Shown here piece after piece: positions 10,959 to 60,455 of a DNA stretch of 64,000 nucleotides; within the stretch, counting starts at the first letter, position 1; the number at the start of each line of letters is the position of its first letter. The position numbers and the translations under genes are program-made. Source of the stretch: Halalkalicoccus tibetensis. GTDB lineage: Archaea; Halobacteriota; Halobacteria; Halobacteriales; Halalkalicoccaceae. The stretch spans positions 244,587 to 308,586 of the forward strand of contig NZ_JBBMXV010000006.1 of NCBI RefSeq assembly GCF_037996645.1, written 5' to 3'. The notes beneath the pieces were generated by a model that ran no database searches, was not told the DNA's origin, and saw only the letters and a list, made by a program, of their open reading frames with translations.

Positions 10959-11194
10959 ACTGGCCGTTCTTTCGTTAAGTGAGTTGGCATTGTTGGAACT
11001 CCTCGAACGGTGATGGATTCTAGAAGTCGTGCTGAATACAGAGCGCGTATCTGTTACAGTAATAATTGACATTTCCATTTGTTCGACGAAGTGCACCCTG
11101 AAGGTCTGGGATGCAGCCGTTGCCACCACTCGTTATCAGCCCTGGTCCCGTCGCTGGTAAGCCCTTTAGTCTCCACCAGCCGTTCTATACCACG

Positions 11195-36342: not shown

Positions 36343-37662
36343 ATGGCCTCTCCGCTGCCGCCGAAACCTGCGGGGCATCCTGTGATTGGTCACGCACTTC
36401 GGTTTGCTCGTGGACCGTTTGACTTTGTAGACGCCGCCACGACCGAATGTGGCGACGCCTATCGAATGGAACTACCGGGATCGAACGAGATCTACGCACT
36501 CTGTCATCCAGATTACTTCGAGCAAGTCCTTGTCTCAGACGTCGGCTCATTTACCAAGACTGATGACTTCCAGCAGGCGTTTGGGAACGGATTACTATCT
36601 ACTGATGGAGCCCAATGGCGTAAACAGCGCAACAGTCTGCAGCCACTCTTCTATCGAGACCATATCAGGGGCTTTGCCGAACAGATGAGTGAGTGCACTC
36701 AGCGTCGCCTTAAGACCTGGCAAGAAGGAGAAACCCGTGATATGGAAGCTGAAATGCAGAATCTTACCTTCGAGATTCTCTTTTCGACGCTCTTTGGCCG
36801 TGAGGTACAGCCTGGGGAGGGTGCTGAGCTACGCGACGCTGCCGACGGTATCAATGACTGGTTCGTCGCTTCTTCCTGGATGTTGCCAAACTGGATCCCA
36901 ACCCCTGCTCGTCGTCGATTCAAGCAATCGAAAGCCCGTCTTCGCGAGGAGGTTCGAGCGATCCTTGCCGACAACCGAGAGCAATCAGCTACAGAGAGTA
37001 TGGATATCCTCTCACAACTTAACCGGGCACGGGATGCCGATGGGGGCCTCTCGAAAAAAGAGATCGAGGATCAGCTCGTCACGATGGTCTTTGCGGGCTA
37101 CGAGACCACTGCAGTCGCCCTCGCATTTGCTTGGCACTCACTCTCCGATCATCCAGAGATTCGAGAAGAGTTCCACCAGGAACTCGAGACGGTCCTTGGT
37201 GGTCGGGCGCCGACCTATGAGGATCTCTCAGAGTTAGAAATCACCGAGCGCATCATCAAAGAGACGCTTCGGTTGTTCCCACCAGTACATACGATCCCAC
37301 GGCGTACGAAGGTACCTGTCGAGTTTGACGGCTTCCACGTCCCAGAAGGCGAAGAAGTACATCTAGCCGTCCTCCATGCCCACCGTGATCCCGAGACTTA
37401 CGAGAGCCCGACCGAATTCCGGCCTGATCGATGGAAGGGAGACTTAGAAGAAGAGATCCACGACTTCGGGTATGTTCCATTCGGTGGTGGACGACGGACG
37501 TGTATTGGGCGAGAGTTCGCACTGTTAGAGGCGAAGATCGTGTTAGCCACGATCGGACAGCAGTTCGAACTTGACGGTGATCACACGACAGAGATCGAGC
37601 TGGAACCCCAGCTTACGACCCAATCGAAAAATGGGATTCCGATGACGATTCGGCCTCGATAA
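36343..37662 (+). CDS. Cytochrome P450 (CYP174-like)
   Basis: The protein has 439 residues. The oxygen-binding I-helix motif is AGYETTAV (about 253-260), the K-helix is KETLRLFPP with the E-x-x-R pair, and the haem loop is FGGGRRTCIG with the Cys ligand near 387. It has no membrane anchor, so it is soluble. The long-chain-type motifs resemble CYP102/CYP174 fatty-acid or carotenoid hydroxylases. No redox partner gene is adjacent. It is divergent from the two-winged-helix regulator, a candidate controller. Confidence 0.9.
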   Translation: MASPLPPKPAGHPVIGHALRFARGPFDFVDAATTECGDAYRMELPGSNEIYALCHPDYFEQVLVSDVGSFTKTDDFQQAFGNGLLSTDGAQWRKQRNSLQPLFYRDHIRGFAEQMSECTQRRLKTWQEGETRDMEAEMQNLTFEILFSTLFGREVQPGEGAELRDAADGINDWFVASSWMLPNWIPTPARRRFKQSKARLREEVRAILADNREQSATESMDILSQLNRARDADGGLSKKEIEDQLVTMVFAGYETTAVALAFAWHSLSDHPEIREEFHQELETVLGGRAPTYEDLSELEITERIIKETLRLFPPVHTIPRRTKVPVEFDGFHVPEGEEVHLAVLHAHRDPETYESPTEFRPDRWKGDLEEEIHDFGYVPFGGGRRTCIGREFALLEAKIVLATIGQQFELDGDHTTEIELEPQLTTQSKNGIPMTIRPR

Positions 37663-39665: not shown

Positions 39666-39749
39666 GGGTACATCCCGTGAACGGCTGGTGACGGCTCTAG
39701 CCACAGACCCTTCTGGAGGGTTTCACTCCTGACACCAGCTGTCCGTGGA
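39666..39749 (+). repeat. 85-bp conserved structured element, copy A
   Basis: This copy aligns with 54914-54999 and 60374-60455. The most conserved core is TCCCGTGAACGGCTGGTGAC. GGCT/AGCC form a small hairpin directly after it, and GCTGGTG can pair with CACCAGC near the end (39733-39739). It ends about 15 bp from the stop of the decayed PIN gene on the other strand. Confidence 0.65.
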
Positions 39750-40198: not shown

Positions 40199-41341
40199 AT
40201 GAGGTCAGAGACTACGCCCGTAATCGCACAAGCACTTCGAACCCCGCAAGGAAAGGAAGGTGGTGCTCTTGCCAATGTCCGCAGTGAGGATCTCTCAATC
40301 CCGCTGATTGACGAGATCCTCGCCGAAACCGGACTCAGTGGTGAAGAGATCGACGACCTGATGTGGGGTTGTGCTCAGCAACGTGGAGAGCAGGACAACA
40401 ATATCGCGCGCGTCATTGCCCTGCTCTCGGAGCTGGGTGAGAACGTCCCTGCGACCACCATTAACCGCTGGTGTGCCTCCTCAATGCAAGCGATCATCTC
40501 TGCGAGCGATGCAATCCGTGCTGGGCAACGTGACGCGATCATCGCTGGCGGCGTCGAGTCGATGAGTCGAGTGCCGAAGGACGGCCAGTCCTATGATCAC
40601 CTCCATCCGAAGCTCGCTGAAAACTACGATGTCACCGGGCTACAGATGGGTATGACAGCCGAGAAAGTAGCTGAAGAGTTCGACGTCTCGCGGGAGAAAC
40701 AGGACGAGTACGCGCTTCGAAGCCACCGACGCGCGGCGGCGGCGACCGATGAAGGCCGCTTCGAGGACCAGATCGTTCCTATCAAAACCGAGGATGGGAT
40801 CGTGACCGAGGACGAAGGGATTCGTCGTGACACCTCGATGGAGGCACTCTCCGGGCTTCCGACAGTATTCAAAAGTGACGGTAGTGTCACCCCAGGTAAT
40901 GCCTCACAAATCACCGACGGTGCTGCTGCCACTCTTGTCACGAGCCGCGGATTCGCGAAGGACCATGGTCTCAACGTGCTCGCGGAGGTCGGCTCGAACC
41001 ACGTCGCAGGTGTGGATCCCACGATCATGGGAGTTGGTCCCGTCCCCGCGACGAAGGGGCTGCTCGAACGCACTGGACGAGAGATCGACAACTACGACCT
41101 CGTCGAACTCAACGAGGCGTTCGCGAGCCAAACACTCTACTCACAACGCGAGCTTGGCGTCTCTGATGACCGGTTTAACGTCAATGGTGGCGCGATCGCA
41201 TTGGGTCACCCGCTGGGTGCAAGCGGTGCTCGTCTACCTGTTACGTTGATCCATGAACTGATCGACCGTGACGCCGATCGCGGGTTGACGACGCTTTGTG
41301 TTGGTTTCGGCCAGGGCGCGGCGATCGAGTTCTCACGATAG
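40199..41341 (+). CDS. Thiolase (acetyl-CoA C-acyltransferase)
   Basis: The protein has 380 residues, starting MRSETTPVIAQALRTPQGKE. The acyl-accepting Cys is in NRWCASSMQAI (about 92), the NEAFA motif is near 308, the catalytic His is in GGAIALGHPLGASGAR (about 335) and the second Cys region is near 366 (LCVGFGQG). It cleaves 3-ketoacyl-CoA or condenses acetyl-CoA units. The strong GGAGG 4 bp before the ATG fixes the start. It stands alone but near acyl-CoA dehydrogenase and ligase genes, suggesting fatty-acid or side-chain breakdown. Confidence 0.9.
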   Translation: MRSETTPVIAQALRTPQGKEGGALANVRSEDLSIPLIDEILAETGLSGEEIDDLMWGCAQQRGEQDNNIARVIALLSELGENVPATTINRWCASSMQAIISASDAIRAGQRDAIIAGGVESMSRVPKDGQSYDHLHPKLAENYDVTGLQMGMTAEKVAEEFDVSREKQDEYALRSHRRAAAATDEGRFEDQIVPIKTEDGIVTEDEGIRRDTSMEALSGLPTVFKSDGSVTPGNASQITDGAAATLVTSRGFAKDHGLNVLAEVGSNHVAGVDPTIMGVGPVPATKGLLERTGREIDNYDLVELNEAFASQTLYSQRELGVSDDRFNVNGGAIALGHPLGASGARLPVTLIHELIDRDADRGLTTLCVGFGQGAAIEFSR

Positions 41342-41448
41342 GAGTCACAAGCTACCTTTCATCCGGATCACCGGAACGCAGATCACCCGCCCTATAGTGA
41401 ACCTATGAAACACGAGAGAATCGATACTGGTTCTGATGATCGAATGCC

Positions 41449-43131
41449 TTAATCATGGACGAGAACGTCCAAGACGGTTGGTTCGCTACTTGCGATCGCG
41501 TCCTTAACTGCGGAGCTGATCTCTTTGGGTGTTTCGATCAAGCGGCCCTCGGCACCATGGCTCTCGGCGTTGGCTGCAATGTCGACAGGCGGCTCAAAGT
41601 CCATTCCAACGTATTCGTGATCGGTATCGGTTCCCCCGAAGAGCTTGATCGTGTTGTCCTTCAAGATGCGGTAGTTACGGTTATCGGAAACCACAACCGT
41701 CAGGTCGATCCCGTGGCGCGCCGCGGTATGGAGCGTGTGAGGATAGTAGAGATAGGAACCGTCGCCGACGAATCCAAGCACATTACGTGGCGCTTCACGC
41801 TGGTTCTCAGCGATAGCCGCTCCGACCGCCGCCGGAAGTCCGTAGCCGAGACCGCCACCCTTGTTTGAGATCAGGCCTTCAGGTTCAAGCGGCCACCGGT
41901 TCAACAGCGCGTACTTCGAAGTGACGCCCTCATCGACAAGGTAGGCGTCGGGGACGGTTTCCCGAATGCGGTCGACTAGATCGGCCTTTGAGGCGCGAGG
42001 ATCGTCCGCCGCGTCGCTCGTTCCGACCGAGGACAGGGTAGCGGCTAGCGACTTACGGACGTCCTTTACGTGTTCGAGCCGTGCGTCTCGAACGCCCGTA
42101 TCGATCCGCTCCTCAACTCGGTCAGAGAGAGCTGCCATGACCTCGCCGGAATCGCCGAGTACGGCGGCGTCAGCCGGTTGGAGTTTGCCGAGTTCCCACG
42201 CGTCCTGTCCGAGATGGATACAGGTCGTCTCGCGACCGACCAGCGGGTTCTCGTGGCGAACCAGCGTCGTATTGGTTGAACAGCCTGCGAACACCAGCGT
42301 GTCAACATCCATGACCTCTCTGGCTAGATCCTCATCGGGCGGAACGTAGGAGATCCATTGGTCGTGTTCCGTTGGGAAGTTGACCTCGCAGGCGAGAATC
42401 TCGCCGTGGACGCGGAGGCCGGCGGCTTCGGCGAGCGCCACCGCTGCGTCGACGGCATCGCGCCCCGCCCGGGCGACGTGATCGCCGACGACCAGGACGG
42501 GATCCTCGGCCGCAGCGAGCAGCTCCGCGGCCCGGTCTATCTGGTGCGGATCGCCACGGCCGGCCGTGGGGATCTCGCCCAGCCGCTCGGGATCGGCGTC
42601 GGTCTCGGTCATCATCGTATCCAGCGGTAGACCGAGAAAGACCGGGCCGGTCGGGGGTGTAAGCGCGGTCCGGAAGGCACGGCGGACCATCGAGGGCAGT
42701 GCCTCGACATCGAGTACTTCCGCACTCCACTTGGTGAACTCCTCGGCTATCCCAACGAGGTTCCCCGAGAGGATCGGCTCCTCGTGGCGGAAGTCGGTAC
42801 TGTGGTTGCCCGCGGTGACGACCACGGGTGCGCCCGCAACCTTCGCGGCGTAGAGGTTGCCGAGCCCGTGGGCGAGCCCCGGTGCAAGATGGAGGTTAGC
42901 GACACCTACCGGAAGAACGTCCGAATCATGATGAGCGTGGTAGCGTCGAGTACTCGCGTAGCCACCGGCCATTCCGACGGCGATGTCCTCGTGTAGGCCG
43001 AGGATGTATTCGATCTCGCTATCACCGAGCGCTTTTAACACGGGTAGCTCGGTCGTCCCGGGATTGCCGAAGACGTGGGAAACACCGTACTGCTCGAGGG
43101 CCGTAACGAATAGTTCTGATCCTGTTTGCAT
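41449..43131 (-). CDS. Thiamine-diphosphate enzyme of the acetolactate synthase / benzoylformate decarboxylase group
   Basis: The protein has 560 residues in three domains. The N-terminal PYR domain has HVFGNPGTTELPVL and the catalytic Glu in GLHEDIAVGMAGGYA (about 48). The C-terminal PP domain has the ThDP motif GDGSYLYYPHTLHTAARHGI (from about 465) ending in the DNRNY region. It lacks an obvious FAD-type central signature, pointing to a 2-oxoacid decarboxylase or carboligase. Two bases separate it from the TRAP permease upstream, so it is probably the first enzyme for the compound imported by system 2. Confidence 0.85.
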   Translation of the reverse strand: MQTGSELFVTALEQYGVSHVFGNPGTTELPVLKALGDSEIEYILGLHEDIAVGMAGGYASTRRYHAHHDSDVLPVGVANLHLAPGLAHGLGNLYAAKVAGAPVVVTAGNHSTDFRHEEPILSGNLVGIAEEFTKWSAEVLDVEALPSMVRRAFRTALTPPTGPVFLGLPLDTMMTETDADPERLGEIPTAGRGDPHQIDRAAELLAAAEDPVLVVGDHVARAGRDAVDAAVALAEAAGLRVHGEILACEVNFPTEHDQWISYVPPDEDLAREVMDVDTLVFAGCSTNTTLVRHENPLVGRETTCIHLGQDAWELGKLQPADAAVLGDSGEVMAALSDRVEERIDTGVRDARLEHVKDVRKSLAATLSSVGTSDAADDPRASKADLVDRIRETVPDAYLVDEGVTSKYALLNRWPLEPEGLISNKGGGLGYGLPAAVGAAIAENQREAPRNVLGFVGDGSYLYYPHTLHTAARHGIDLTVVVSDNRNYRILKDNTIKLFGGTDTDHEYVGMDFEPPVDIAANAESHGAEGRLIETPKEISSAVKDAIASSEPTVLDVLVHD

Positions 43132-43133
43132 GA

Positions 43134-45107
43134 TTAGTTTCTAGCTGAAACACGAAATCGCGACGGAGTGCTCGAATTCGAGACGGCTAAGGCAACGACG
43201 ACAGCGACGCCGGCCCCGATCTGGAGCGCGGGATGGACGACCACACCGAACATCGCGCCGAACGACGCGACCCCGTAGAGGGTCCGTCGGAGCGATCCGA
43301 GCGAGCGCCTGCCGTCGTAGCCCACCGTGGCGACGATGAGCGCGACGGTCCCCGCGAGCACGAGCGGGAACGCGACGACCGTCTCGGGGAACGACCACTG
43401 GATCAGGCCGTCGTTGGCGACGAACGCGAAGGGGATGGCGAACCCCGGCGCGCCGATCCGCAGGGCCTGTAGGCAGGCCCTCGTGAAGCTCGTGCCCGCG
43501 ATCCGCGAGCCGACGGCGACCGAGATGGCCACGGGCGGCGTGATCGCCGACAGCATCGCGAAGTAGAACACGAACATGTGGGTCGTGAGCTCGGGGATCC
43601 CCATCGCCTCCACGCCCGGCGCGACGAGGATCACCACGAGAATGTACGCCGCGGGCGTCGGCATGCCGAGCCCGAAGAGGATGCTTGCGAGCATCGCGAG
43701 CACGAGCACGAGCAGCAGGCTCCCGCCGCCGAGCCCGACGATCAGCGTGCTCACGCGCTGTGCGAGGCCGGTCTGGGTGAGCAGTTCGATGATGATCCCC
43801 ATCGCCGCGAGCACGCCGACCAGTGGCGCCATCTCGACGCCGCCACGGTACAGCCCCGTGACGGTCCGCCTCGCGGTTGCGAGGAGGGTGTCGAGCGAGG
43901 GTCCGTCGACGTAGAGGTTCCTGAGCGCGACGGTCCCGACGATCGTGAAAATGGTGTACATCCCTGCCGAGAGCGGCGAATAGCGAAGCACGATCAGCGT
44001 GTAGAGCAACACTGCGAGCGGGACCGCGAAATGGAGCCCTTGGAGGAGGACCCGCGGCTCGAACTTGTCCGTTCGCTCGGTCGTCCAGCCGAACTTCAGC
44101 ACCGCCAGGTGGACACCGACCCCGACGCTCAGGTAGAACAGGGCGGCCGGAATCAGTCCCGCGCGGATGACGTCGACGTACGGCACACCGATGATGTCGG
44201 CCATGAGGAAGGCCGCGACGCCCATCACCGGCGGGAGCATTTGTCCGCCCGCACTGGCGACGGCCTCGATGGCGGCCGCGAAGTCGTCGCGGATCCCCTG
44301 ATCGCGCAGCATCGGAATGGTGAAGCTACCCGTCGTCGCGGTGTTGGCCGCCGCGCTGCCGGTGATCGATCCCATCACCATGCTCGCGATCACGGCCACC
44401 TGGACGATCCCGGTCCGAAGGCTCGAGCCGATCTCGCGACCCGCATCGAGGACGAAGTCCATCAGTCCGTAGGCCTTCGCGATCCCCGCGAACATGATGA
44501 AGATCGCGACCCAGGTCGCGCCAATGCCCATTAGCGTCTCGTGGTAGACCCCTGTGAGCCCGATCGCGCCGTCGCGGGCGATCTGCTCCCAGCTCATCCC
44601 CGTGTGGCGGAAGACGCCGGGCATGTTCGGGCCCACAAGCGAGTGGGCGTAGACCACCGCCGTGAGGGTGACGGCGGCGATGGTGTTGCCGAACGCGCGT
44701 CGGGTGGTGTCGACCGCGAGCACGATCAATACGAGCCCGACGAGGAGGTCGTTGGTCGTGTAGCCGACCACCGGTGCGTCGTAGAACAGCCGATCGAAAT
44801 GCAGTTCGACGTAAGCAACTGACCAGATCGCGAGCCCGGCGAGCCCGACCGCGACCAACGGTTCGATCCGCCGACGGATCGACCCCTCGGTCGCCCCCTC
44901 CTCCCGCTGCCCCTCAAGGACCGTATGGAGGTAAAACAGCGCGATCCCCAGACCGAGAAAGAGGTTGGTGTAGCGGATCTGTTGGGTGAAGAACTGCGAA
45001 TACGCGTAGTAGATCGTATAGAGAGTGAACGTCACGCCCAGGAGGTAGGTGACCGCCCGGAGGACGTTCAGTGGCGTCATCCACGCGCGGACGGCCCGAA
45101 CCGACAT
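43134..45107 (-). CDS. TRAP transporter fused permease (TAXI type), system 2
   Basis: The protein has 657 residues and is the same type as the permease at 22900 but clearly diverged. Marker segments are MVMGSITGSAAANTATTGSF, GGQMLPPVMGVAAFLMADII and FYFAMLSAITPPVAISV. The DNA is visibly richer in GC than that of system 1, so the two systems have different histories. It lies between its TAXI binding protein (3 bp upstream) and the ThDP enzyme (2 bp downstream), forming one operon. Confidence 0.9.
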   Translation of the reverse strand: MSVRAVRAWMTPLNVLRAVTYLLGVTFTLYTIYYAYSQFFTQQIRYTNLFLGLGIALFYLHTVLEGQREEGATEGSIRRRIEPLVAVGLAGLAIWSVAYVELHFDRLFYDAPVVGYTTNDLLVGLVLIVLAVDTTRRAFGNTIAAVTLTAVVYAHSLVGPNMPGVFRHTGMSWEQIARDGAIGLTGVYHETLMGIGATWVAIFIMFAGIAKAYGLMDFVLDAGREIGSSLRTGIVQVAVIASMVMGSITGSAAANTATTGSFTIPMLRDQGIRDDFAAAIEAVASAGGQMLPPVMGVAAFLMADIIGVPYVDVIRAGLIPAALFYLSVGVGVHLAVLKFGWTTERTDKFEPRVLLQGLHFAVPLAVLLYTLIVLRYSPLSAGMYTIFTIVGTVALRNLYVDGPSLDTLLATARRTVTGLYRGGVEMAPLVGVLAAMGIIIELLTQTGLAQRVSTLIVGLGGGSLLLVLVLAMLASILFGLGMPTPAAYILVVILVAPGVEAMGIPELTTHMFVFYFAMLSAITPPVAISVAVGSRIAGTSFTRACLQALRIGAPGFAIPFAFVANDGLIQWSFPETVVAFPLVLAGTVALIVATVGYDGRRSLGSLRRTLYGVASFGAMFGVVVHPALQIGAGVAVVVALAVSNSSTPSRFRVSARN

Positions 45108-45110
45108 GGC

Positions 45111-46163
45111 TCAGCCCTCCCCGCGCTCGAACTCCTCGCGCCAGACGTCGATCTCCTCGTAGAAGTCGGCCGCCGCGGGATGAAACGGGACGTCCTCGTA
45201 GGCGTTCTCGACCCAGAACTCCTCGTCCGCCAGTGGGTTGAGCAGTGCGTGGTACTCAGCGAGCCCCTCGCGGCCCTCGTACAGCGTCTCGAGGAACCCA
45301 TAGACGGTGTCGTACTCAAGGTCGTCGCGACAGACGAAGTTATAGGAGAACTCGACCCCCCACACCTCCTCGGGCGCGGCGGCGGCCTCCTCGAGATCCT
45401 CGCCTGGGAACGACTCGGCCTGCAGGCGCTCGTCGTCCTCCCAGGCCTCGATCGCCTCCTCGGGCACTTCCAGTAGACTGAGATCGACAGTCCCCATCAT
45501 CTCCTGAAGCCATCCAGGGACAATCTCGTAGTTCATGTAGGTTCCCATTCCGACATCGAGACGTCCCTCGTTCATCGCGCTGGCCTGCTCGCCGTAGTCC
45601 TCGCTCACCCGGTCGTACTCATCGATGACGTACTCAAGGGCGTGCTCAACCGCCGTGGCCGTCCCCGATCCCCGGGGCGTCGGCGAGACCGTCGTCTCCG
45701 CCTCGATATCGGCGATCGAGTCGAGCCCTTCAGTGGCCGAGCAGAAGAACCACGGCAGATCATAGTAGTGGAACACCTGGTTGATCGAAAAATCGAGATC
45801 GCCGAACGGTTCGACCCCCTCCCGAACGTCGACGGCCGACCAGTTCTGAATGTAGACCATTTCGGCCTCGCCACTGTTGAGCGCGCCGATGTTCGCCTCG
45901 GTTCCCGGGCTGGTCTGAGCCTCAACGAACACCTGGTCCGTGTCGTCGTTCACCGCGGCCGCGATCCCCTGGTTGGCGGCGTAAGCGGCAGTTGTGGACG
46001 TTGCAGTCCGCATCCGCAGGGTCGACTCCCCGTCCGAACTGCCGTTGCCGCCCTCGTCAATTGTCTCCGGATCGTCGTCACCGATACAGCCGGCTAGTCC
46101 GAGCGTCCCCGCCCCGCTCGCGGTTAGGAATGCCCGCCGGCCAAGCCCGATACGATCGCTCAT
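45111..46163 (-). CDS. TAXI-family TRAP substrate-binding lipoprotein, system 2
   Basis: The protein has 350 residues from ATG 46163. The signal is GRRAFLTASGAGTLGLAGC, a twin-arginine sequence followed by a lipobox (Cys near 25). The TAXI domain has TTAAYAANQGIAAAVNDDT, GEAEMVYIQNWSAVDVREG and VPFHPAAADFYEEIDVW at the end. It delivers the solute to the system 2 permease. The promoter region before 46163 includes TGATCATTAATAACT near 46246-46260. Confidence 0.9.
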   Translation of the reverse strand: MSDRIGLGRRAFLTASGAGTLGLAGCIGDDDPETIDEGGNGSSDGESTLRMRTATSTTAAYAANQGIAAAVNDDTDQVFVEAQTSPGTEANIGALNSGEAEMVYIQNWSAVDVREGVEPFGDLDFSINQVFHYYDLPWFFCSATEGLDSIADIEAETTVSPTPRGSGTATAVEHALEYVIDEYDRVSEDYGEQASAMNEGRLDVGMGTYMNYEIVPGWLQEMMGTVDLSLLEVPEEAIEAWEDDERLQAESFPGEDLEEAAAAPEEVWGVEFSYNFVCRDDLEYDTVYGFLETLYEGREGLAEYHALLNPLADEEFWVENAYEDVPFHPAAADFYEEIDVWREEFERGEG

Positions 46164-46288
46164 TGTCTCCCCCGTCCGCATTCACCGTTTCCACTGTGAC
46201 CCGAGTTTCCTATCATTGTTAGCGCTTATCGGCCTAGTGGTTCACACTGATCATTAATAACTATCTAGGACGGCGAAGGTCGATCTCC

Positions 46289-46531
46289 TCAGAGCGGCTC
46301 CTCGCCCTCGATCCCCTCGCGCATCGCGGCGATGTCTCCGCCCGCCGAGAAGGCGCCGCCGGCGCCCTCGACGACGAGACAGCGTGCCTCGTGATCCTTA
46401 ACCGTCGCGAGCGCCTCGCGCAGACCGTCGCTCACCTCCCGTGAGAGGGCGTTCCTCCGGTTGGGTCGGTCAATCGTGACCGTTACCATCCCGTCGTCGA
46501 GTGTCAACCGAACGGCGTCGCTGTCGATCAT
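46289..46531 (-). pseudogene. 3'-truncated enoyl-CoA hydratase
   Basis: The first 80 residues of a crotonase are present: VTIDRPNRRNALSREV (about 18-33) and the oxyanion-hole segment GAFSAGGDIAAMREG (about 59-73). The frame stops after EGEEPL, while family members have about 255 residues. The active-site Glu or Asp region is absent. Its ATG overlaps the stop of the acyl-CoA ligase, so the two once formed an operon. Confidence 0.75.
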
Positions 46532-47755
46532 TCGTCCGCGGCCTCTGTCTCTTGCTCGCGGAGCTTGAACTTCTGGACCTTGCCGGTCGTGGTGCGGGGC
46601 AGCTCCTCGACGAACTCGACCTCGCGGGGGTGTTTGTACTCCGCGAGGCTCGACAGGCAGTACTCCTTGATTTCCTCGGCGCTCACGTTGGCATCCGGCG
46701 TCGGGACGATGTAGGCCTTGATCGTCTCGCCCCGACGACCGTCGGGGATCCCGACAACAGTAGCGTCCGCAACAGCCTCGTGTTCGAACAACAGCTCCTC
46801 GACCTCGCGTGGGTAAACGTTGTAGCCTGCAGTGACAATCATGTGCTTCTCGCGGTCAACGACGTAGTAAAAGCCATCCTCGTCGTGGTAGCCGATGTCA
46901 CCGGTGTGGAACCATCGTCGCCCATCGGCCTCCGTGAACGTCCTCTCATTGGCCTCGGGCAGGCCGTAGTACCCCTTCATCACGTTCGGCCCCGCGATGA
47001 CGAGTTCGCCGGTGATCTCGTCGAGGTCAACCTCCCCCTCATCGACGGGCCCGCGCTCGACGGGCGGGACGTCCTCGAAGCCGTCGGTGACGATCCGCGA
47101 CTCGATCCCCGGTAGGGTCCGGCCGATCGAGCCGACCCGCCGATCGTTCGGGCTGTTGAAGTGGGTGACCGGTGCGGTCTCGGTCAGCCCGTAGCCCTCA
47201 CAGACGGTCACGTCGTAGAGCTCCTCGAAGCGCCGCAGCACCTCGATCGGGATGCCCGATCCGCCCACCCCCGCGAGCCGCAGCGAGGAGAGGTCGAACT
47301 CCTCGGCGTCGGGCTGGTTGATCACGTCGTTGTACATCGCGGGCACGCCGTGCATCAGGGTGAGCTCCTCCTCGGCGATCAGCGAGGTCGCCTCCCCCGC
47401 GTCCCAGGAGGGAAGCGGGTAGAACGCCCCGCCGTTGAACAGCGTCGCATTCATCGTTATTGTCATTCCGTAGATGTGAAAGAACGGCAAGACGCCGATC
47501 TGTCTGTCGTCGACTCCGATCCCGTTGGGTACCACCGCCACCGACGCCTCGGCATTCGTCGCGAGGTTCTCGTGAGTCAATTGCACTCCTTTGGGCTGGC
47601 CAGTCGTCCCCGATGTATACAGTTGAACGGCGTCGTCGTCGTCGGCCCGGTCGACGACGTCAAGTTCGTCATTGGCGAGGAATTCCTTAAAGGGGGTGGC
47701 GATTTCCGCTGTCCCGCCGATCGATACGATCTGTTCAACCTTGGTATCGTCCTCA
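46528..47755 (-). pseudogene. 5'-truncated AMP-binding acyl-CoA ligase
   Basis: From EDDTKVEQIVSIGG onward the sequence is a normal ligase: the P-loop YTSGTTGQPKG, GYGLTETAPV, FHTGDIG, YNVYPREVEELL and the catalytic Lys in TTTGKVQKFK near the end. About the first 120-140 family residues are missing. The reading frame stays open upstream only because it runs antisense through an acyl-CoA dehydrogenase fragment, so the N-terminal part of that long frame is not real protein. The C-terminal ~400 residues are intact. Confidence 0.8.
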
Positions 47756-48141
47756 ACCTCGAGCAGGCCCGCGAGTACGCGACCGACCGCGAGCAGTTCG
47801 ACAAACCCATCGGGAGCTTCCAGCTCCAGCAGGGCAAGCTCGCGGAGATGGCCACGGAGATCACGACGAGCCAATTGCTTGCCCATCGGCTCGCGGAGCT
47901 GAAGGAACGCGGCGAGCTGCGCCCTCAGCAGGTCTCGATGGCCAAACGCAACAACGTCGAGATGGCTCGCGATCAGTCGCGGGTCGCCCGCGAGATGCTT
48001 GGAGGCAACGGAATCACCGATGAATACTCCCCGATGCGCCACATGGCCAACATGGAGACGGTCTACACCTACGAGGGGACCCACGACATCCACACGCTGA
48101 TCCTGGGTCAGGACCTCACTGGCCTCTCCGCGTTCGAGTAA
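47755..48141 (+). pseudogene. C-terminal fragment of an acyl-CoA dehydrogenase
   Basis: The plus strand reads LEQAREYATDREQFDKPIGS, then LAEMATEITTSQLLAHRLAE, MLGGNGITDEYSPMRHMANM and TYEGTHDIHTLILGQDLTG, the last ~130 residues of a glutaryl-CoA-dehydrogenase-like enzyme. The N-terminal ~250 residues are missing. It abuts the 5'-truncated ligase head to head near 47750-47765, marking a deletion or inversion breakpoint. Confidence 0.8.
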
Positions 48142-48372
48142 ACGTAACCACCCTGCAAGACCGTCTTCAGTGCGTAACTGGCTGTACAACTACCGGTAAA
48201 GTTCGGATATTCACGCTCCAATCAGAGGATCGCCTCCAATCCTCCACATTGCTGTTTTGGTGGTCATGAATCGGTTTGCAAGGTATCGTTGTCATTCTTG
48301 ATATGGTCGACGTCGTCTCAAAATGGGAACTACCGAGCGATTTCGTGATCTTTTGGCCGCACTGGACTACGG

Positions 48373-49533
48373 CTACTCTTCGAATTTCGCTTGCTGACTA
48401 TAGATCAGATTTCGCTGGATCTCGTTTGCTCCTTCATAGATAACAGGGATTCGGCAGTCCCGATAAACACGAGCGATTCGGCGGTTGGTAAATATTGATC
48501 GTCCACCATGCAACTGCATCCCGCGCTCGGCACAGTCTACCGCCGTCTCAGTAGAGTTGGTTTTCACGAGGGAACCCCATAGACTCGTTCTCTCACCCTC
48601 TATTGCTTTGTCGGCAGCTCGCCAGTTCAGTGCACGAGCACTCTCAAAGTCGATACGCATATCCGCAAGTTCATGCTGAACAGCCTGGAAATCGCTTATC
48701 TTCTTCTCGAACGCCTCACGGTCGTGGACGAATTTCCAGGTCTCTTCCACGGCTGCGGCAGCGATCCCCAGGCCATGACCACCGACGATGACGCGTTCTT
48801 TGTTAAAGAAATCGACAAGCATGTAAAACCCATCATTTTCGGTGCCAAGGAGGTTCTGCTCGGGTATTCTGCAGTTCTCGAAGATGATGTGGCCCTGCTT
48901 GCTCGCACGAAAAGCCATTTTCTCCGGAATATGCTCGGCTTCGTAGCCGTCGGCATCGGTTGGCACGATGAACAGCGAGTAATTCGAATACCGATGGTCC
49001 GAGTCGTCCGTTTTCGCATATACTGTCAGCCAATCAGCCTCAACCGCGTTACCCACCCAGTATTTCTCGCCATTCAGCACCCACTCGTCGCCGTCCTTTT
49101 CAGCGTGAGTGGTCATTCCTGCGAGGTCACTGCCCGTATCGGGTTCCGATATCGCAAGTCCAGTAATTTGATCCCCGTTCGCGACTGGGCGAAGATACTC
49201 TTCGTGTTGAGCATCGGTTCCATGTCTCTCAACAAGCTCACCGCCGAAACTCGCTAACCGTAACGTAAGTCCGATACCCGGATCTGCTCGGAAAAATTCC
49301 TCCACAAGTGCCAGCATCTCCATGACATCAAACCCACGACCTCCATAATCCTCGCCAATATCTTGAGCGACCAGATCTGCGTCACGACCTGCCTCTAAAA
49401 TCTCCCACGGATAGTCTCCAGTTCTAAAGTACTCCTCCGCATTTGGAGCAATATACTCTCGGGCAAATTTTCGTGCCTCTCGTTTCACTTGGTGAGCATG
49501 CTCCGGTATGATTGACTCGTCTAACAACTCCAT
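48373..49533 (-). CDS. Acyl-CoA dehydrogenase
   Basis: The protein has 386 residues, full length for the family. Signatures are GLAISEPDTGSDLAGM (about 127-142, FAD/substrate loop), KYWVGNAVEADWLTVYAKTD, QAVQHELADMRIDFESARAL and the end QLHGGRSIFTNRRIARVYRD then YEGANEIQRNLI. It oxidises acyl-CoA to enoyl-CoA and passes electrons to ETF. Chain length cannot be told. Unlike the fragment at 47755 it is intact. Confidence 0.9.
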   Translation of the reverse strand: MELLDESIIPEHAHQVKREARKFAREYIAPNAEEYFRTGDYPWEILEAGRDADLVAQDIGEDYGGRGFDVMEMLALVEEFFRADPGIGLTLRLASFGGELVERHGTDAQHEEYLRPVANGDQITGLAISEPDTGSDLAGMTTHAEKDGDEWVLNGEKYWVGNAVEADWLTVYAKTDDSDHRYSNYSLFIVPTDADGYEAEHIPEKMAFRASKQGHIIFENCRIPEQNLLGTENDGFYMLVDFFNKERVIVGGHGLGIAAAAVEETWKFVHDREAFEKKISDFQAVQHELADMRIDFESARALNWRAADKAIEGERTSLWGSLVKTNSTETAVDCAERGMQLHGGRSIFTNRRIARVYRDCRIPVIYEGANEIQRNLIYSQQAKFEE

Positions 49534-54658: not shown

Positions 54659-55072
54659 CAACTATCACAGACCTATAGATTATTGAATAATTCTCAGATG
54701 AGCTGATAGATTCGCCTCGCTTAACTCACTCATGGCCCGAGACGTGGACGGGTTCATAGGGGTCCTCGAGGTCTTTCCGATCGGCGAGGGCGGGCGATGT
54801 CACTTCGGGCGCGGGGATTGTCTTGCGAATCTTCTGATCCCACATCCGGGACCCTTCGAAGAACTCAGACGGTGGCCCCGCGTCGCCACAACCGGCGCCA
54901 ACAACGTGAGGACGCAGGTACGTCCCGTGAACGGCTGGTGACGGTTCCAGCCAGGGACCCTCTTAGAAAATCTCACTCTCGACAACAGTTGTCCAGGGAG
55001 AGGAGGGCTCTTTTAATGTTCCATGATAACATTTAACTATAGGGAACGATAATTATCGACCAGTATATAGGG
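54659..55072. other. Intergenic region with element copy B and a possible gene scrap
   Basis: The minus strand at about 54735-54903 stays open (VGAGCGDAGPPSEFFEGSRM, then WDQKIRKTIPAPEVTSPALA) and has haloarchaeal codon use, but no family was recognised and there is no start or end, so it may be a gene fragment. The 85-bp element follows at 54914-54999. Confidence 0.4.
54914..54999 (+). repeat. 85-bp conserved structured element, copy B
   Basis: The core TCCCGTGAACGGCTGGTGAC is identical to copy A. The next hairpin has GGTT/AGCC in place of GGCT/AGCC, so pairing is kept through a G-U. The far arm (CAACAGT) pairs less well with GCTGGTG than in the other copies. No PIN gene is next to this copy. 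Confidence 0.65.
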
Positions 55073-55363: not shown

Positions 55364-55457
55364 GGCCTTGTGAAGGCGCTGTGCTCATATGAGTCGCCGA
55401 TACCAGTAAAGAAAGCGACAAGCAGAATTTACAGAGGAGTGGTCTCTCTGGCCGTTA

Positions 55458-55525
55458 GCTCCCGTGGGTGCGGATCACCTCTCTAACAGGGCACAATCTC
55501 TCTCACACGAACACGGCCGTCGAGT
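55458..55525 (+). repeat. Degenerate repeat, related to 39582-39650
   Basis: It shares CCCGTG, GCGGAT, CTCTAACAGG and CACGAAC...CGG with the stretch before element copy A. In this region it lies after, not before, the 85-bp element, so the order differs. Confidence 0.4.
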
Positions 55526-55636
55526 CTAGTATTTCTACTTTCTAATTCAGAGCCTGCTGGTACCACTTAGAGGAATTTTCCCTCACTGATCGTAAAGAGA
55601 GGCTTATGAACCATTGCTCTACATACTGTCGATACG

Positions 55637-56257
55637 ATGAGTAGCTATCCTGAGACTAAACAACGCATTAGAGAAGCTGCCTTCCGTGCGCTCACTACGC
55701 ACGGGTACGCGGATCTCTCGATCAAAGATATTGGTGACGAACTCGGTCAAAATCCATCCCTGATATACCATTATTTCGATAGCAAAGACGAACTCCTGCT
55801 TTCAATGCTTGATGTCTTTGTCGAGATTTTCGTCGGTCAACGAGCTGAGCAGCCGATTACTGACCCAGAAGCAGAACTACGAGAGTTCATTGATCAAGTT
55901 CTCTCTCCTCAACCAGAGCAAATCGAACAGGTCATGTTCTCCCCACCAGCCGATATCCAACAGGGAGTTTCGCGAGTATTCGTCGAACTATGGGCCCATG
56001 CGACGTGGGATGACGAATTCCGAGCAGAAACTACACGAGTGGAAAGTCGACTCAGAGAAACGGTCATTCAGATACTCCGTGCCGGCATCGAACTCGAGCA
56101 GTTCCAACCAGTGGAACCGGAGCAGACAGCAGATCATCTTCTCTTTCTGCTCAAACAAACGATCCACACTCGTACGACGACGAACCGAGATGCCGTCACC
56201 GAGCGTGGTCAAATGATTATCGATCGTGTGATAGACGATATTTCAGTAGAGAGTTAG
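55637..56257 (+). CDS. TetR/AcrR-family transcription regulator
   Basis: The protein has 206 residues. The N-terminal helix-turn-helix is LSIKDIGDELGQNPSLIYHY then FDSKDEL (about 24-50); the rest is the helical ligand-binding and dimer domain. ATG 55637 gives the usual MSSYPETKQRIREAAF start. It is the likely owner of the TTGATT palindromes before the two P450s (56352, 59075) and the SDR (60237). A decayed paralogue start is at 62988. The ligand is unknown. Confidence 0.9.
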   Translation: MSSYPETKQRIREAAFRALTTHGYADLSIKDIGDELGQNPSLIYHYFDSKDELLLSMLDVFVEIFVGQRAEQPITDPEAELREFIDQVLSPQPEQIEQVMFSPPADIQQGVSRVFVELWAHATWDDEFRAETTRVESRLRETVIQILRAGIELEQFQPVEPEQTADHLLFLLKQTIHTRTTTNRDAVTERGQMIIDRVIDDISVES

Positions 56258-56351
56258 TCACAAGGCTGCTGCTGCTATAGTTTCGACGATCGCTTCACGT
56301 CTTCTTCCCATTACAGTGCCATTAGCCCACGACGGTACCAAAAGACCCATA

Positions 56352-56371
56352 TTGATTAATCGATCAATTAA
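56352..56371. promoter_or_regulatory. Palindromic operator before P450 A
   Basis: TTGATTAATCGATCAATTAA ends 3 bp before the ATG at 56375. The same 20 bp, and three more bases (CGT), recur on the minus strand before the second P450 (59072-59094). The arms TTGATTaATCGATcAATTAA are near-perfectly symmetrical, as for a TetR dimer. It would cover the transcription start of a leaderless mRNA. Confidence 0.75.
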
Positions 56372-56374
56372 CGT

Positions 56375-57604
56375 ATGCAGTCATCTGGATCAGTCGTTGG
56401 AGTGGGTCAGGCACCGGAAGCCATTCGAAGCCGCGACAGGCAGCTCTCGCCGTTCGAATGGTACGCTGAGATGCGTCAGGAAACTCCCGTTTGTTACGAC
56501 GAACGACGGGAAACATGGGACGTGTTCCGATACGAAGACGTAAACCACGTTCTCAAAGATCATGATGCGTTCACAGCTAATCGCACACTGGAGGCCGATG
56601 AATCCTCAAATGGCGGTAGTGATGAGATGCCGATGTTGCAGACGATGATCACAACAGGCCCACCGGAACACAACCGCCTGCGGGGATTTATCGACGAACG
56701 GTTCCAGCCGGGAGCGATACGGGAGTACCAGCCCCAAGTAGAGAAGGTAACAGCGGAGTTGCTGGATGACCTCGAAAACAAGCAGCAGTTCGATTTTGTC
56801 GACGAGTTCGCAATTCCGGTTCCGGTCATCGTCATCGCCGAGCTGCTGGGGATTCCCGCTGACCGCCGCGAGCAGTTCAAGGAATGGTCGGATGCACTCG
56901 TTGCACGGCCCGAAGACGACACACAAGAGGAGATACAACGGGTCCAGCAAGGACAGCAACAGGCCCAACAGGAAATGGGCAGGTACTTCGCGAAGTTATT
57001 GGAAGAGCGCCAGGGGGGTGACGGCGATGACCTCGTTACGCTCGCAGCGAACGCAGAGGAGCTATCCAGAGGCGAAAAGGTCGGGTTCTGCATCCTCCTT
57101 CTTCTCGCAGGCAACATCACAACGACGAACCTCCTCACTAACACGATCTGGTCGTTCGAGGAAGAGGGAATCACAAATGACGTTCGAACGGGAGCGATCG
57201 ATCACGAACAGGCCATCGAAGAGGCGCTTCGATATCGGTCCCCGATCCAGTCATTAAAACGAATCGCTACGGAGGACGTCGAACTGAACGGCCAACAAAT
57301 CCAGACTGGGGACATCCTGACGCTCTGGTTGGGTGCTGCAAACCGTGACCCGGAGGTCTTCGATGATCCCGAGGAGTTCCGACCCGAGCGAGGGTCCAAC
57401 CGGCACATCGCGTTCGGAACGGGAGTCCACTTTTGTTTAGGTGCTCATCTCGCACGGATGGAAGCAGACGTCGCCATAGAGCAGTTGCTTGAGCGCTTTG
57501 ATCGGCTGGACGCGGATCTCTCGGATCTTCAACCGTTGAGTAGTCTCTACGGTCTCGAATCGCTCCCCTGTGAAGTGAGCATGAACGCTCATTCAGAAAG
57601 ATAG
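56375..57604 (+). CDS. Cytochrome P450 A
   Basis: The protein has 409 residues, a soluble bacterial-type class I P450. The I-helix motif is LLLAGNITTTN (about 243-253), with Asn-Ile where most have His/Glu-Glu/Thr before the Thr pair. The K-helix is EEALRYRSPIQ and the haem loop is FGTGVHFCLGAHLARME with Cys354. It has the fold of CYP107/CYP109-like terpene or steroid hydroxylases, but the substrate cannot be told. It follows the TetR gene by about 115 bp and converges with P450 B. Confidence 0.9.
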   Translation: MQSSGSVVGVGQAPEAIRSRDRQLSPFEWYAEMRQETPVCYDERRETWDVFRYEDVNHVLKDHDAFTANRTLEADESSNGGSDEMPMLQTMITTGPPEHNRLRGFIDERFQPGAIREYQPQVEKVTAELLDDLENKQQFDFVDEFAIPVPVIVIAELLGIPADRREQFKEWSDALVARPEDDTQEEIQRVQQGQQQAQQEMGRYFAKLLEERQGGDGDDLVTLAANAEELSRGEKVGFCILLLLAGNITTTNLLTNTIWSFEEEGITNDVRTGAIDHEQAIEEALRYRSPIQSLKRIATEDVELNGQQIQTGDILTLWLGAANRDPEVFDDPEEFRPERGSNRHIAFGTGVHFCLGAHLARMEADVAIEQLLERFDRLDADLSDLQPLSSLYGLESLPCEVSMNAHSER

Positions 57605-57688
57605 GCTGATATCGCCAGTTATTCTATTCGCGTATCTCCGTAGTAGATCTCGGGCCACCGAGTGATAGGCGACCGGTTACTCGGCCGC

Positions 57689-57835
57689 TCAGTAGCCGTC
57701 CGTGAGTAGTGTATGCCTTTCTCTGTTTGGTACCTTGTAGATCACAGTCATGTACTGTCGATCGACGGTGGTCATGTGGCCGATTGAATAGCGTCCGTAT
57801 TCGACCTTTGTGATAGCCAGCGCGACGTCCGCCAT
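57689..57835 (-). CDS. Possible 48-residue protein between the P450 genes
   Basis: The frame MADVALAITKVEYGRYSIGH then MTTVDRQYMTVIYKVPNRER has haloarchaeal codon use and a beta-rich pattern. Its start is 45 bp beyond the stop of P450 B on the same strand, so it could be the second gene of that operon. No family was recognised. Confidence 0.4.
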   Translation of the reverse strand: MADVALAITKVEYGRYSIGHMTTVDRQYMTVIYKVPNRERHTLLTDGY

Positions 57836-57879
57836 TTGTGTGAGCGAGGCGAACGAAAACCGACGTGGCCCGATCGAAG

Positions 57880-59073
57880 CTAATTATGCGGATGAAACGT
57901 CATCGGGAGACGATCGAATCCATAGCTAGTCGCTAGCTCGACGGGCTCAGAAGGACCCTCGTTGACCTCGAGTCGTTCGACGCGATCCGTGACGGCATCG
58001 AGAATGATATCCCCCTCCAGCTTCGCGAGCGGCGCACCGAGACAGTAGTGAGGACCGAACCCGAACGCGATGTGACGATTCGGCCTCCGATCGGGACAGA
58101 ACTGATCTGGATCGTCGAAGACGTCGGGGTCCCGATTGGCCGACCCAATCCAGGAGACGATCCGCTCGCCTTCGGGAATCTCCGTTCCGCTTAGTTCGAC
58201 CGCTTCAGCCGTTCGTCGCCCGGAGATCGACTGTACCGGTCCTCGATACCGGAGAACCTCGTCGAACACTGTCCGCCGGTCGAGCTCGCCATCGCGGAGT
58301 CGCTCGTACTCCCCGGTTTCCTCCAGCGTCCAAAGGGCGTTCCCGACGGCGTGGGTCGTCGTCGAGTGGCCGGCGAGAAAGAGAAAGACACAGAACGCCC
58401 GCTGTTCGGACGGCGAAAGCGTCGGTTCGTCGTCCGCTTCCGAACCCGCGATGACCGAGATCAAGTCACTTTCCGGATTCTGGCGACGCTCATCGAGGAG
58501 ATTACCGAAGTATTCGTACATCTTTCCCACCCCTTCCATGATGGCATCGCGCCCAGCCTCGTCGCCAGTCATCGCGCCGGACCACTGTCTGACCAGGTCC
58601 CAGTCGTCCTCGGGAACACCCAAAAGCCGGGAGATTGTTAGGACGGTTACCGGGGCGGTCAGCTCGCCGATAACATCAATCTCCCTTCCATCTTCGAGTG
58701 CTCGATCGAGGCGGTCGTCGACGATCGATCGAATCGACGGGCGAAGCTCCTCGAGGTTTCCTGGCTGGAAGTACTCCTCGACGACACCCCGAAGCCGGTC
58801 GTGCTCCGGCGGGTTCTCGTCGATGAGGAGCGTTCCCAGGTTTCCGTTCGGATCGAAGTCCGACGCACCCGTCGAGGTGAATGTCTCGTAATCGGAGAGC
58901 GCCCGCTTGACGTCATCGTAGCGAAAAACGTCCCAGCAGTCGCGACTCTCGTCGTATCGAACGGGTTCGGTCTCGCGCATCGTCTCGTACCACGGAAACG
59001 GGTCCATCAGCCGTTCTTCCGCGGTGAGTTCGTCCGGTGGTCGCATATCAGGTCCAGGATTTTGCTGGCTCAC
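57880..59073 (-). CDS. Cytochrome P450 B
   Basis: The protein has 397 residues from GTG 59073. An upstream ATG at 59097 would translate the operator itself (LINRSI), so the GTG directly after it, or ATG 59046, is preferred; P450 A starts at the same place relative to the same palindrome. The I-helix is LFLAGHSTTTHAV, the K-helix EVLRYRGPVQ and the haem loop FGFGPHYCLGAPLAKLE (Cys about 344). It is about as long as P450 A and clearly homologous, suggesting duplication and divergence. Soluble, class I. Confidence 0.88.
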   Translation of the reverse strand: MSQQNPGPDMRPPDELTAEERLMDPFPWYETMRETEPVRYDESRDCWDVFRYDDVKRALSDYETFTSTGASDFDPNGNLGTLLIDENPPEHDRLRGVVEEYFQPGNLEELRPSIRSIVDDRLDRALEDGREIDVIGELTAPVTVLTISRLLGVPEDDWDLVRQWSGAMTGDEAGRDAIMEGVGKMYEYFGNLLDERRQNPESDLISVIAGSEADDEPTLSPSEQRAFCVFLFLAGHSTTTHAVGNALWTLEETGEYERLRDGELDRRTVFDEVLRYRGPVQSISGRRTAEAVELSGTEIPEGERIVSWIGSANRDPDVFDDPDQFCPDRRPNRHIAFGFGPHYCLGAPLAKLEGDIILDAVTDRVERLEVNEGPSEPVELATSYGFDRLPMTFHPHN

Positions 59074-59074
59074 G

Positions 59075-59094
59075 TTAATTGATCGATTAATCAA
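59075..59094. promoter_or_regulatory. Palindromic operator before P450 B
   Basis: On the minus strand this reads TTGATTAATCGATCAATTAA, identical to 56352-56371, and the next three bases CGT are also the same. The GTG start lies directly after it. Confidence 0.75.
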
Positions 59095-59386
59095 CATCGT
59101 AGGTCTTTCGGTTGCCGTGCTCCCGGTCGGCCCTGCAGTCAGAACGACCGATATTCACTATGAGGGTCGGCGCGGTGGTCGACCGTACGACGTGGAACTG
59201 ATCGACATCCCGACCAAGGAAGGTAACGACGGTTCCACAGACTACAGGGGACCACAACGATATGGCCCACGGGTTCGTGACGTTCCACGAGGTCGATCAG
59301 GCTCGCAAGGCGATCAGGGACCTCGGCGGCGATCTCGCGGAGCTGCTCACCGGGAACTGACGTCCGGCACTATCGTGTGCGCTATC
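59095..59386. other. Intergenic region between divergent P450 B and convergent SDR 2
   Basis: A plus-strand frame near 59261-59362 (MAHGFVTFHEVDQARKAIRD then LGGDLAELLTGN) could be the end of a lost gene; it has haloarchaeal composition but no recognised family. Nothing else is seen. Confidence 0.4.
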
Positions 59387-60223
59387 TCAGTCGGCTGCCT
59401 GACCACCGTCGACGGGCAACGTGTGGCCGGTGATATAGGAGGCATCGGATGAACAGAGGAACGCGACTGCGCCGGCCATCTCCTCCGGTCGAGCGATGCG
59501 GTCCATCGGTACGTCCCGCATGGCTGACGTATCGAAATTCATCCGGCGTGTCTGAATTACCATCCGGATCAGTTCGACGGCCGTTCTGATCCGATCAAGC
59601 ATCGGTATCGGCGATTCGCTGGCTCTGCTCAACAGGCCCGACTGGATGTTCGTTCGTGTCGGACCGGGCGCGATCGCATTGATACGGACGCCCCGATCGG
59701 CGTACTCGAGGGCGGCCGATTTCGTCAAGCCGACGACACCATGTTTGCTGGCCGAGTAACTGGCGAGGCCGCTCATGCCGACCAAGCCGGACTCGGAGGC
59801 CGTGTTGACGATCGCGCCGCCGCCTTGCTCCTCCATGACTGGGAGCTCGGCCTTCATGCACGTCCAGACGCCCTTTAGGTTGATCCGGACGATCCGCTCC
59901 CACTGTTCGTCAGTGATGTCCTCGATTCCCGAGAATCCCGTGAGAATCCCTGCGTTATTGTGCGCGAACTCAAGGCTCCCGTAGGTGTCGACCGCGACGT
60001 CGACCATTCGTTCGACAGACTCGGAATCGGAGACGTCGACTTCGACAAACGTCGCGTTACCGCCCGCATCCTCGATGAGATCGACCGTCTTACGGCCCCC
60101 TTCTTCGTCGACGTCCGTGACGACGACGTTCGCCCCTTCCTCCGCGAAGCGCCGTGCTGATTCGCGTCCAATGCCCGATGCGGCTCCCGTTACGACGGCA
60201 GTCTTCCTATCTAATCCATTCAT
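59387..60223 (-). CDS. Short-chain dehydrogenase/reductase 2
   Basis: The protein has 278 residues. TGAASGIG (12-19) binds the cofactor, DVDEE near 37-41 suggests NAD preference, NNAG is near 92, the catalytic Ser is in NTASESG, and YSASK (about 159-163) gives Tyr and Lys. It has an insertion (about 195-235, SGLLSRASESPIPMLDRIRT) seen in steroid- and terpene-type SDRs. The palindrome at 60237-60256 lies 14 bp before the ATG, so it is probably co-regulated with the P450s. Confidence 0.88.
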   Translation of the reverse strand: MNGLDRKTAVVTGAASGIGRESARRFAEEGANVVVTDVDEEGGRKTVDLIEDAGGNATFVEVDVSDSESVERMVDVAVDTYGSLEFAHNNAGILTGFSGIEDITDEQWERIVRINLKGVWTCMKAELPVMEEQGGGAIVNTASESGLVGMSGLASYSASKHGVVGLTKSAALEYADRGVRINAIAPGPTRTNIQSGLLSRASESPIPMLDRIRTAVELIRMVIQTRRMNFDTSAMRDVPMDRIARPEEMAGAVAFLCSSDASYITGHTLPVDGGQAAD

Positions 60224-60236
60224 GAGTTATCCCTTT

Positions 60237-60256
60237 TTGATTGATTACTCAATCAA
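60237..60256. promoter_or_regulatory. Palindromic operator before SDR 2
   Basis: TTGATTGATTACTCAATCAA has perfect 8-bp arms TTGATTGA/TCAATCAA around TTAC. It shares the TTGATT half-site with the P450 operators but has a different centre, so it is the most divergent of the three. Confidence 0.7.
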
Positions 60257-60373
60257 TAAGAGTTCTCATATGATAGTCGTCTTGGATTTCCGGTGAGCCT
60301 TTGAGCTATAGAGGCGTTCTACGCCCAACAACAAGTATCTCTAAGCTTTAACGTAGATATCGGGACGGTATTC

Positions 60374-60455
60374 GCAGGTATGTCCCGTGAGCGGCTGGTG
60401 ACGGCTCTAGCCACCTACTTAAGAGATCCACTCCTGACACCAGCTGCCCGTGGAC
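60374..60455 (+). repeat. 85-bp conserved structured element, copy C
   Basis: The core is TCCCGTGAGCGGCTGGTGAC, one base from copies A and B. GGCT/AGCC and GCTGGTG/CACCAGC pairings are kept. It ends 8 bp from the stop of the intact PIN gene on the opposite strand, the same arrangement as copy A with its dead PIN gene. Confidence 0.65.

Follow-up and report, generated by a model that had tools for sequence, protein, structure and literature searches.

A four-gene cassette in the window, the 64,000-nucleotide stretch of Halalkalicoccus tibetensis DNA analysed here, appears to form a small TetR-controlled regulon, perhaps for the oxidation of a hydrophobic compound. The cassette spans positions 55565–60264 and consists, in order, of tetR (+ strand), P450 A (+), P450 B (−) and a gene for a predicted short-chain dehydrogenase/reductase (SDR), SDR 2 (−), with the two P450 genes convergent. 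A preliminary description had proposed a TetR regulon of two P450s and an SDR, and this proposal is upheld: the palindrome before the three enzyme genes follows the TetR across genomes, occupies a fixed place in the promoter and is rare elsewhere. We conclude that the small regulon is real and that it is likely released by substrate. On the comparative evidence, the neighboring TetR probably represses P450 A, P450 B and SDR 2 through the 20-bp palindrome until a hydrophobic ligand releases it.

Operators in the cassette promoters

Each of the three enzyme genes is preceded by a palindrome that we take as its putative operator. The P450 A site, TTGATTAATCGATCAATTAA, lies at 56352–56371 (+), 3 nt from the ATG at 56375. 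The same sequence occurs on the other strand before P450 B (59075–59094, −), 1 nt from the GTG at 59073, and the related palindrome TTGATTGATTACTCAATCAA lies before SDR 2 (60237–60256, −), 13 nt from the ATG at 60223. The three bases following the P450 A and P450 B sites are also equal, making 23 bp identical, and a repeat search reports the pair as 26-nt inverted arms with 96% complementarity. The positions and the 23-bp identity are thus as first described. That the sites abut start codons holds for P450 A and for P450 B, given its in-frame GTG start, but is a loose description for SDR 2; the longest P450 B open reading frame (ORF) begins at an ATG at 59097, in which case the palindrome would fall within the gene. 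All three sites fit exactly the consensus TTRATTRA-N4-TYAATYAA, a refined motif derived from the sites of relatives.

The sequence before P450 A reads, in gene orientation, as a CCAAAAG-like element, a TATA-like box, the palindrome and the start codon. The putative CCAAAAG/TATA-like promoter element of P450 A (56338–56353, +) belongs to a block that is kept in relatives, and its counterpart before P450 B, a candidate CCGAAAGACC/TATA-like element at 59095–59111 (−), resembles that block. No bacterial sigma-70 promoters were found in 55400–60400.

This arrangement suggests a simple mechanism. TetR (55637–56257) would bind the 20-bp palindrome, probably as a dimer. Because haloarchaeal transcripts are mostly leaderless, the palindrome would lie at about −23 to −4, where a bound dimer would bar polymerase or its factors. 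Sitting between the TATA-like box and the start codon, it would block transcription of P450 A, P450 B and SDR 2 until a hydrophobic ligand, likely the substrate, frees it from the operators. The P450s would then hydroxylate that compound and SDR 2 would oxidize the resulting alcohol to a ketone. A host ferredoxin would have to supply the P450s with electrons, as the four-gene cassette encodes no redox partner. Binding and repression are inferred, as are the leaderless start, the nature of the ligand and the reaction sequence.

Association of the palindrome with the TetR

An orthologous TetR (E ≤ 1e-40) is found in 19 of 391 sampled Halobacteria genomes; named orthologues (61–76% identity) come from Natrinema, Haloterrigena, Haladaptatus, Natrialba, Haloferax, Halobacterium and one unclassified halobacterium, which marks the window as haloarchaeal. 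We compared 21 stretches: the window, a genome of the same genus (G006), the other 17 genomes of the draw, Natrinema zhouii (L029) and a Haladaptatus sp. (L031). With up to two mismatches allowed, and two shifted readings of the same sites excluded, all 35 motif places in these stretches lie before a cassette gene (17 before P450 A, 14 before SDR 2 and 4 before P450 B), and none lies elsewhere. The spacing is equally constant: all 17 P450 A sites are 3 nt from the start, and the SDR 2 sites are 13–15 nt away (9 or 13 in L134). The 20 relatives have 34 matches in their 354 kb, whereas 20 order-2 Markov simulations gave 0.15 on average and 1 at most. In the 17 aligned P450 A promoters, information reaches 1.59 bits per column in the operator, compared with 0.98 in the B recognition element (BRE)/TATA region (−44 to −24) and only 0.22 from −90 to −45, and the CCAAAAG..CTATAA-like block is kept throughout.

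P450 A carries the site in 17 of 18 cases. The exception, L109 (genome G006), is left out of the alignment; its P450 A (10453–11561) is damaged, with no match to the first 43 residues and the stretch before the heme cysteine missing. The palindrome of L109 has shrunk to a short AT-rich remnant, and P450 B and SDR 2 in G006 retain their sites. SDR 2 has the site in 14 of the 15 loci where it heads its own unit; in L031 and L135, where P450 A precedes it on the same strand, it lacks a separate site. The site is kept by all four P450 B orthologues that reach 64% identity (those of the window, of G006, of G289 and of G259, stretch L134), and the B-like P450 of L140 (46% identity) has none. In L134 (6387–8470), a second TetR, 41–44% identical, lies between P450 B and SDR 2, both of them site-bearing. 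Conservation does not extend to a larger pathway, a possibility we rejected: in a scan of ORFs of at least 90 amino acids at 42% identity or more, no family beyond TetR, P450 and SDR is shared by more than three of these 21 stretches (14–20 kb each), an antisense ORF over SDR/TetR genes in six stretches not being counted.

The preliminary description had named abundance of the palindrome at unrelated places as an observation that would overturn it, and the genome-wide scan does not find such abundance. Within the window alone, the excess is only moderately convincing, as TTGATT-N8-AATCAA with up to two mismatches gives 5 matches compared with 1.86 in shuffles, and 2 of 100 shuffles reach 5. 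Across the whole 3.6-Mb genome, with up to one mismatch, it gives 9 places versus 0 for the reversed pattern. Six of these are outside the window (two in genes, one 41 nt before an unrelated start and three unclear or intergenic), and none of the six fits the refined motif at one mismatch or fewer. Two of the nine places, one on contig C14 and one on C15 (31359 bases each), have identical sequence and opposite orientations, and the two contigs are possibly one sequence assembled twice. The refined motif has 4 places at up to one mismatch and 8 at up to two, versus 3 for the reversed control at up to two. The four places with two mismatches (three inside unrelated genes, one beside) are in line with that control. 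A chance origin of the palindromes, or a common genomic word, is rejected by the genome counts, controls and simulations.

The fourth place of the refined motif, C5:12582–12601, lies 15 nt before a second SDR 2 copy (85% identical) on another contig. The narrower TTGATT-N8-AATCAA search missed this site, which was located after a search with SDR 2. With its palindrome, the second copy spans C5:12582–13450 (L241, L242), outside the window, and it is likely a fourth member of the regulon. The preliminary description had not noticed this member, nor the likely transfer between families and the different palindromes in the slot of related loci that are described below.

The motif also tracks the TetR between genomes. 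The exact form YTRATTRA-N4-TYAATYAA is present in 16 of the 19 TetR-bearing genomes and in 1 of 20 genomes without TetR (no match at E ≤ 1e-40), the latter being the first listed of 372 rather than a random draw. Among the 24 exact places in the TetR-bearing genomes, 23 are in the cassette and one (G188 C4) is without an evident target; G273, G259 and G095 have no exact match, though they have sites with 1–2 mismatches. Orthologues of SDR 2 give the same picture: 5 of 6 in TetR-bearing genomes have the motif upstream, compared with 0 of 23 in the others. This test covers 29 of 37 places, the other eight being in TetR-bearing genomes and inspected separately. In G044 (L239), one of the genomes without the TetR, the SDR 2 orthologue shows another palindrome, TAACTAAATGGTTAGTTA, at the motif position.

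Several observations weigh against so direct an assignment of the palindrome to the neighboring TetR. The loci are related and several of the 21 stretches come from one genus, so that the counts are not independent. The SDR 2 of L140 heads its own unit without a site. Autoregulation, common in the family, is absent: a site at tetR itself was considered and rejected, none being found before tetR in any of the 21 stretches. The source genome encodes three further TetRs at E ≤ 1e-15, and another TetR could read the tag because the paralogous TetRs of L037 and L038 share the helix PSLIYHY together with TTGATTGA-like sites. These TTGATTGA-type palindromes (L037, 7910–7929; L038, 7908–7970, two) lie upstream of tetR, facing a divergent ORF. 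In favor of the assignment, a paralogous TetR has a perfect TTGATTGA-N4-TCAATCAA 1 nt ahead of its own start.

These further TetRs, and the like palindromes before paralogous tetR genes, would fit an alternative in which a different regulator, for instance a TetR paralogue, recognizes the palindrome and the neighboring tetR controls something else. The distribution of the motif makes this unlikely. The exact form is nearly confined to genomes with the TetR, its sole place in the 20 genomes without it standing 1 nt ahead of another TetR's ATG, and the SDR 2 sites are likewise partitioned. At 5166–5185 of L166, a different tetR has a perfect palindrome, TTGATTGAGTACTCAATCAA, 1 nt ahead of it and a transporter-like gene behind it, which probably reflects autoregulation of that tetR. 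Still less probable is a role of the TetR as an activator, or as a factor that works on the promoter both ways, instead of plain repression. Activators would be expected to bind upstream of the TATA box, whereas the palindrome is placed between TATA-like box and start codon, a position from which a bound protein would block initiation. Some TetR-family members do activate; the FasR abstract names one.

The predicted repressor (tetR, 55637–56257, +; 206 aa) scores 50.3 bits for TetR_N (cut-off 24) and 32 bits for TetR_C_6 (cut-off 27). Its structural model has ten helices (pLDDT 87.1, pTM 0.83) in an all-helical fold with a C-terminal ligand-binding domain, and the closest solved fold is 3crj, a Haloarcula TetR, with TM 0.78–0.89 to chains A, B and D. 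It falls below the curated NCBIfam cut-off for FadR of the Bacillus type (29 versus 200 bits) and below those for BetI (35.9 versus 118 and 35.8 versus 201.3). P450 A (56375–57604, +; 409 aa) is CYP109-like, with 123.1 bits for Pfam p450 and the heme-binding cysteine motif FGTGVHFCLG. P450 B (57880–59073, −), from its putative GTG start, gives 83.9 bits (searched from 59076) and has the motif FGFGPHYCLG. The best solved relatives of both are CYP109 entries. P450 A is 38.9% identical (151/388) to CYP109E1 (5l90) in a comparison with solved structures; membership in a P450 family is assigned above about 40% identity to named members. SDR 2 (59387–60223, −; 278 aa) has the classical SDR signatures TGxxxGxG (TGAASGIG) and YxxxK (YSASK) and passes the domain cut-offs (adh_short 200.8 bits, adh_short_C2 223.4 bits).

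Naming a substrate from structure was tried and rejected, as the solved relatives (CYP109, general SDRs) are too broad to pick one. So small a regulon with one likely ligand-sensing repressor offers a way in, as the compound releasing TetR is expected to be identical or similar to the P450 substrate. Elsewhere in the window (14167–15576, 36343–37662 and 40199–49533) there are a third P450 (25% identity with P450 B over 273 aa), an acyl-CoA dehydrogenase and further genes that by eye resemble those for an AtuA-type protein, a thiolase, a thiamine-diphosphate enzyme, a TRAP-like transporter and an AMP ligase. Together these genes perhaps mark a catabolic region.

Recruitment, transfer and operator exchange

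The preliminary description had suggested that the operator was copied together with a duplicated P450, and this the evidence does not support. P450 A and P450 B are only 38–39% identical, and in the tree nine other haloarchaeal P450s join P450 A in a group that leaves P450 B outside (84/99, a fork that is not fully supported). The tree contains 25 P450 A-type, 5 B-type and 9 other proteins, a subset of those found; its outgroup branch is very long and the placement of the L140 B-like protein is unsure. On this fork we rejected a recent P450 duplication as the source of the copied operator, and the data are better explained by a second P450 having been recruited into the regulon. That the shared 23 bp are a mere relic of a recent duplication of P450 and promoter, with no regulatory role, is scarcely credible: the two P450s are homologous and convergent and their similarity reaches into CC(A/G)AAAGACC upstream, but the proteins have diverged and fall into separate tree groups, a related palindrome stands before the unrelated SDR 2, and there is conservation across 21 loci.

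The cassette has probably moved between families, as judged from sequence identities. It is shared with G289, a genome of another family, at 90.0% (55565–59150) and 81.4% (59386–60264) by blastn; beyond 55565–60264, blastn gives only two short pieces, which map back inside. The same DNA is only 79–82% and 77% identical to that of G006, which belongs to the same genus. A polymerase subunit shows the reverse order at the protein level, with 88% identity to G289 versus 94–96% to G006. A cassette closer to G289 combined with a polymerase subunit closer to G006 argues for horizontal transfer, a claim that depends on the comparison of this single subunit. Equally oriented copies of a dispersed repeat lie on both sides of the cassette (54913–54953 and 60373–60413, 90% over 41 nt); the repeat may be a trace of how the cassette moved. 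More copies occur at 39672–39694, C5:9836–9959, C5:12392–12426 and C6:171508–171590, those on C5 near the second SDR 2 copy.

Related P450s can have other palindromes in the same slot. Orthologues of P450 A at 67–76% identity, from five genomes without the cassette TetR plus a second copy in G193, lack the cassette motif; in or near their slot are palindromes of the TTRACTRA type (L197–L200) or the GAACGTTC type (L201, L202). More distant relatives (47–58% identity) have further variants. L204 is near the cassette type (2–3 mismatches), and its genome, G328, carries the TetR on another contig; inspection revealed no palindrome in the slot of L207. A TetR is present in 7 of the 14 fetched stretches with P450 A-type genes. 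Their recognition helices differ: the segment QNPS[LI][IL]YHY is found in 21 of 21 cassette TetRs, compared with 0 of 7 TetRs near P450 A-type genes (47–76% identity) that have other palindromes. The clearest case is that of L135/L031 and L201/L202, sister pairs (100/99) whose P450s are 74–76% identical, whereas their TetRs are only 33–34% identical and their palindromes different.

Differing palindromes together with a differing TetR recognition helix beside a related P450 A suggest that regulators have been swapped. We lean slightly toward a model in which haloarchaeal CYP109-like promoters have a fixed operator slot, from the TATA box to the leaderless start, within which TetR/operator pairs have been exchanged in evolution while the P450 stays, yielding orthogonal substrate-released switches that spread horizontally. 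Seven of the fetched stretches (L198, L200 and L203–L207) show no TetR, and alternative palindromes occur also at L198, L200 and L203–L206, which weighs against the repressor model proposed for the cassette. Loci where operator and recognition helix have changed together could provide a code for TetR specificity at high salt, and such operator/helix pairs are possible orthogonal inducible promoters for haloarchaea. The cassette itself hints at a switch of expression that is carried from one family to another along with its enzymes.

Comparison with known systems

The CamR/P450cam system of Pseudomonas putida resembles the cassette in having a TetR-family repressor of a P450 and of a dehydrogenase that oxidizes its product. 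It differs in being divergent and autoregulated, with redox partners in the operon and a dehydrogenase of another family.

A further parallel is FatR/Bm3R1 with CYP102 in Bacillus, which, as described in passages of PMC3814354, is likewise a TetR-family repressor dedicated to a P450 and acting at a palindromic promoter operator. FatR/Bm3R1 is displaced by fatty acids, and the B. subtilis operator is 18 bp long and works as a roadblock (PMC3814354, same passages). Release by a hydrophobic compound is thus shown for FatR/Bm3R1 and predicted for the haloarchaeal cassette. Whereas fatR lies within the operon it represses, the haloarchaeal tetR has no site in the 21 stretches. The cassette also differs in its archaeal promoter, in P450s that are closest to CYP109 rather than CYP102, and in a regulon where an SDR and a second P450 have sites of their own.

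Among archaea, FadRSa of Sulfolobus acidocaldarius is, according to passages of PMC6449355, also a TetR-family repressor whose operators are semi-palindromic and few in the genome (four), and it is released by acyl-CoA. Unlike the cassette TetR, it controls a 30-kb cluster of lipase and beta-oxidation genes, recognizes a 16-bp motif and also has a site at the gene that encodes it; those passages mention no P450 (PMC6449355).

Excerpts of two papers on CYP109 place archaeal members on both plasmids and chromosomes and describe a Halorubrum lacusprofundi operon in which CYP109G27 is followed by an SDR (PMC12250468, PMC9962201); the term TetR has no match in the searched text of either. Bacterial CYP109s oxidize fatty acids, alkanes, terpenoids, norisoprenoids or steroids, and most archaeal P450s are described as orphans, with catalytic activity described for one, CYP119 (PMC9962201, in part). 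Archaeal P450 operons are said there to lack redox partners, with which the cassette agrees.

In the open-licence literature, no paper on a TetR-controlled haloarchaeal P450 appeared among the matches listed, as judged from titles and abstract openings. The kind of circuit is already known from bacteria (FatR/Bm3R1, PMC3814354) and, for lipid catabolism, from Sulfolobus (PMC6449355). Absent from the matches listed are the haloarchaeal P450–SDR cassette, its fixed operator slot and the apparent exchange of repressor together with operator.

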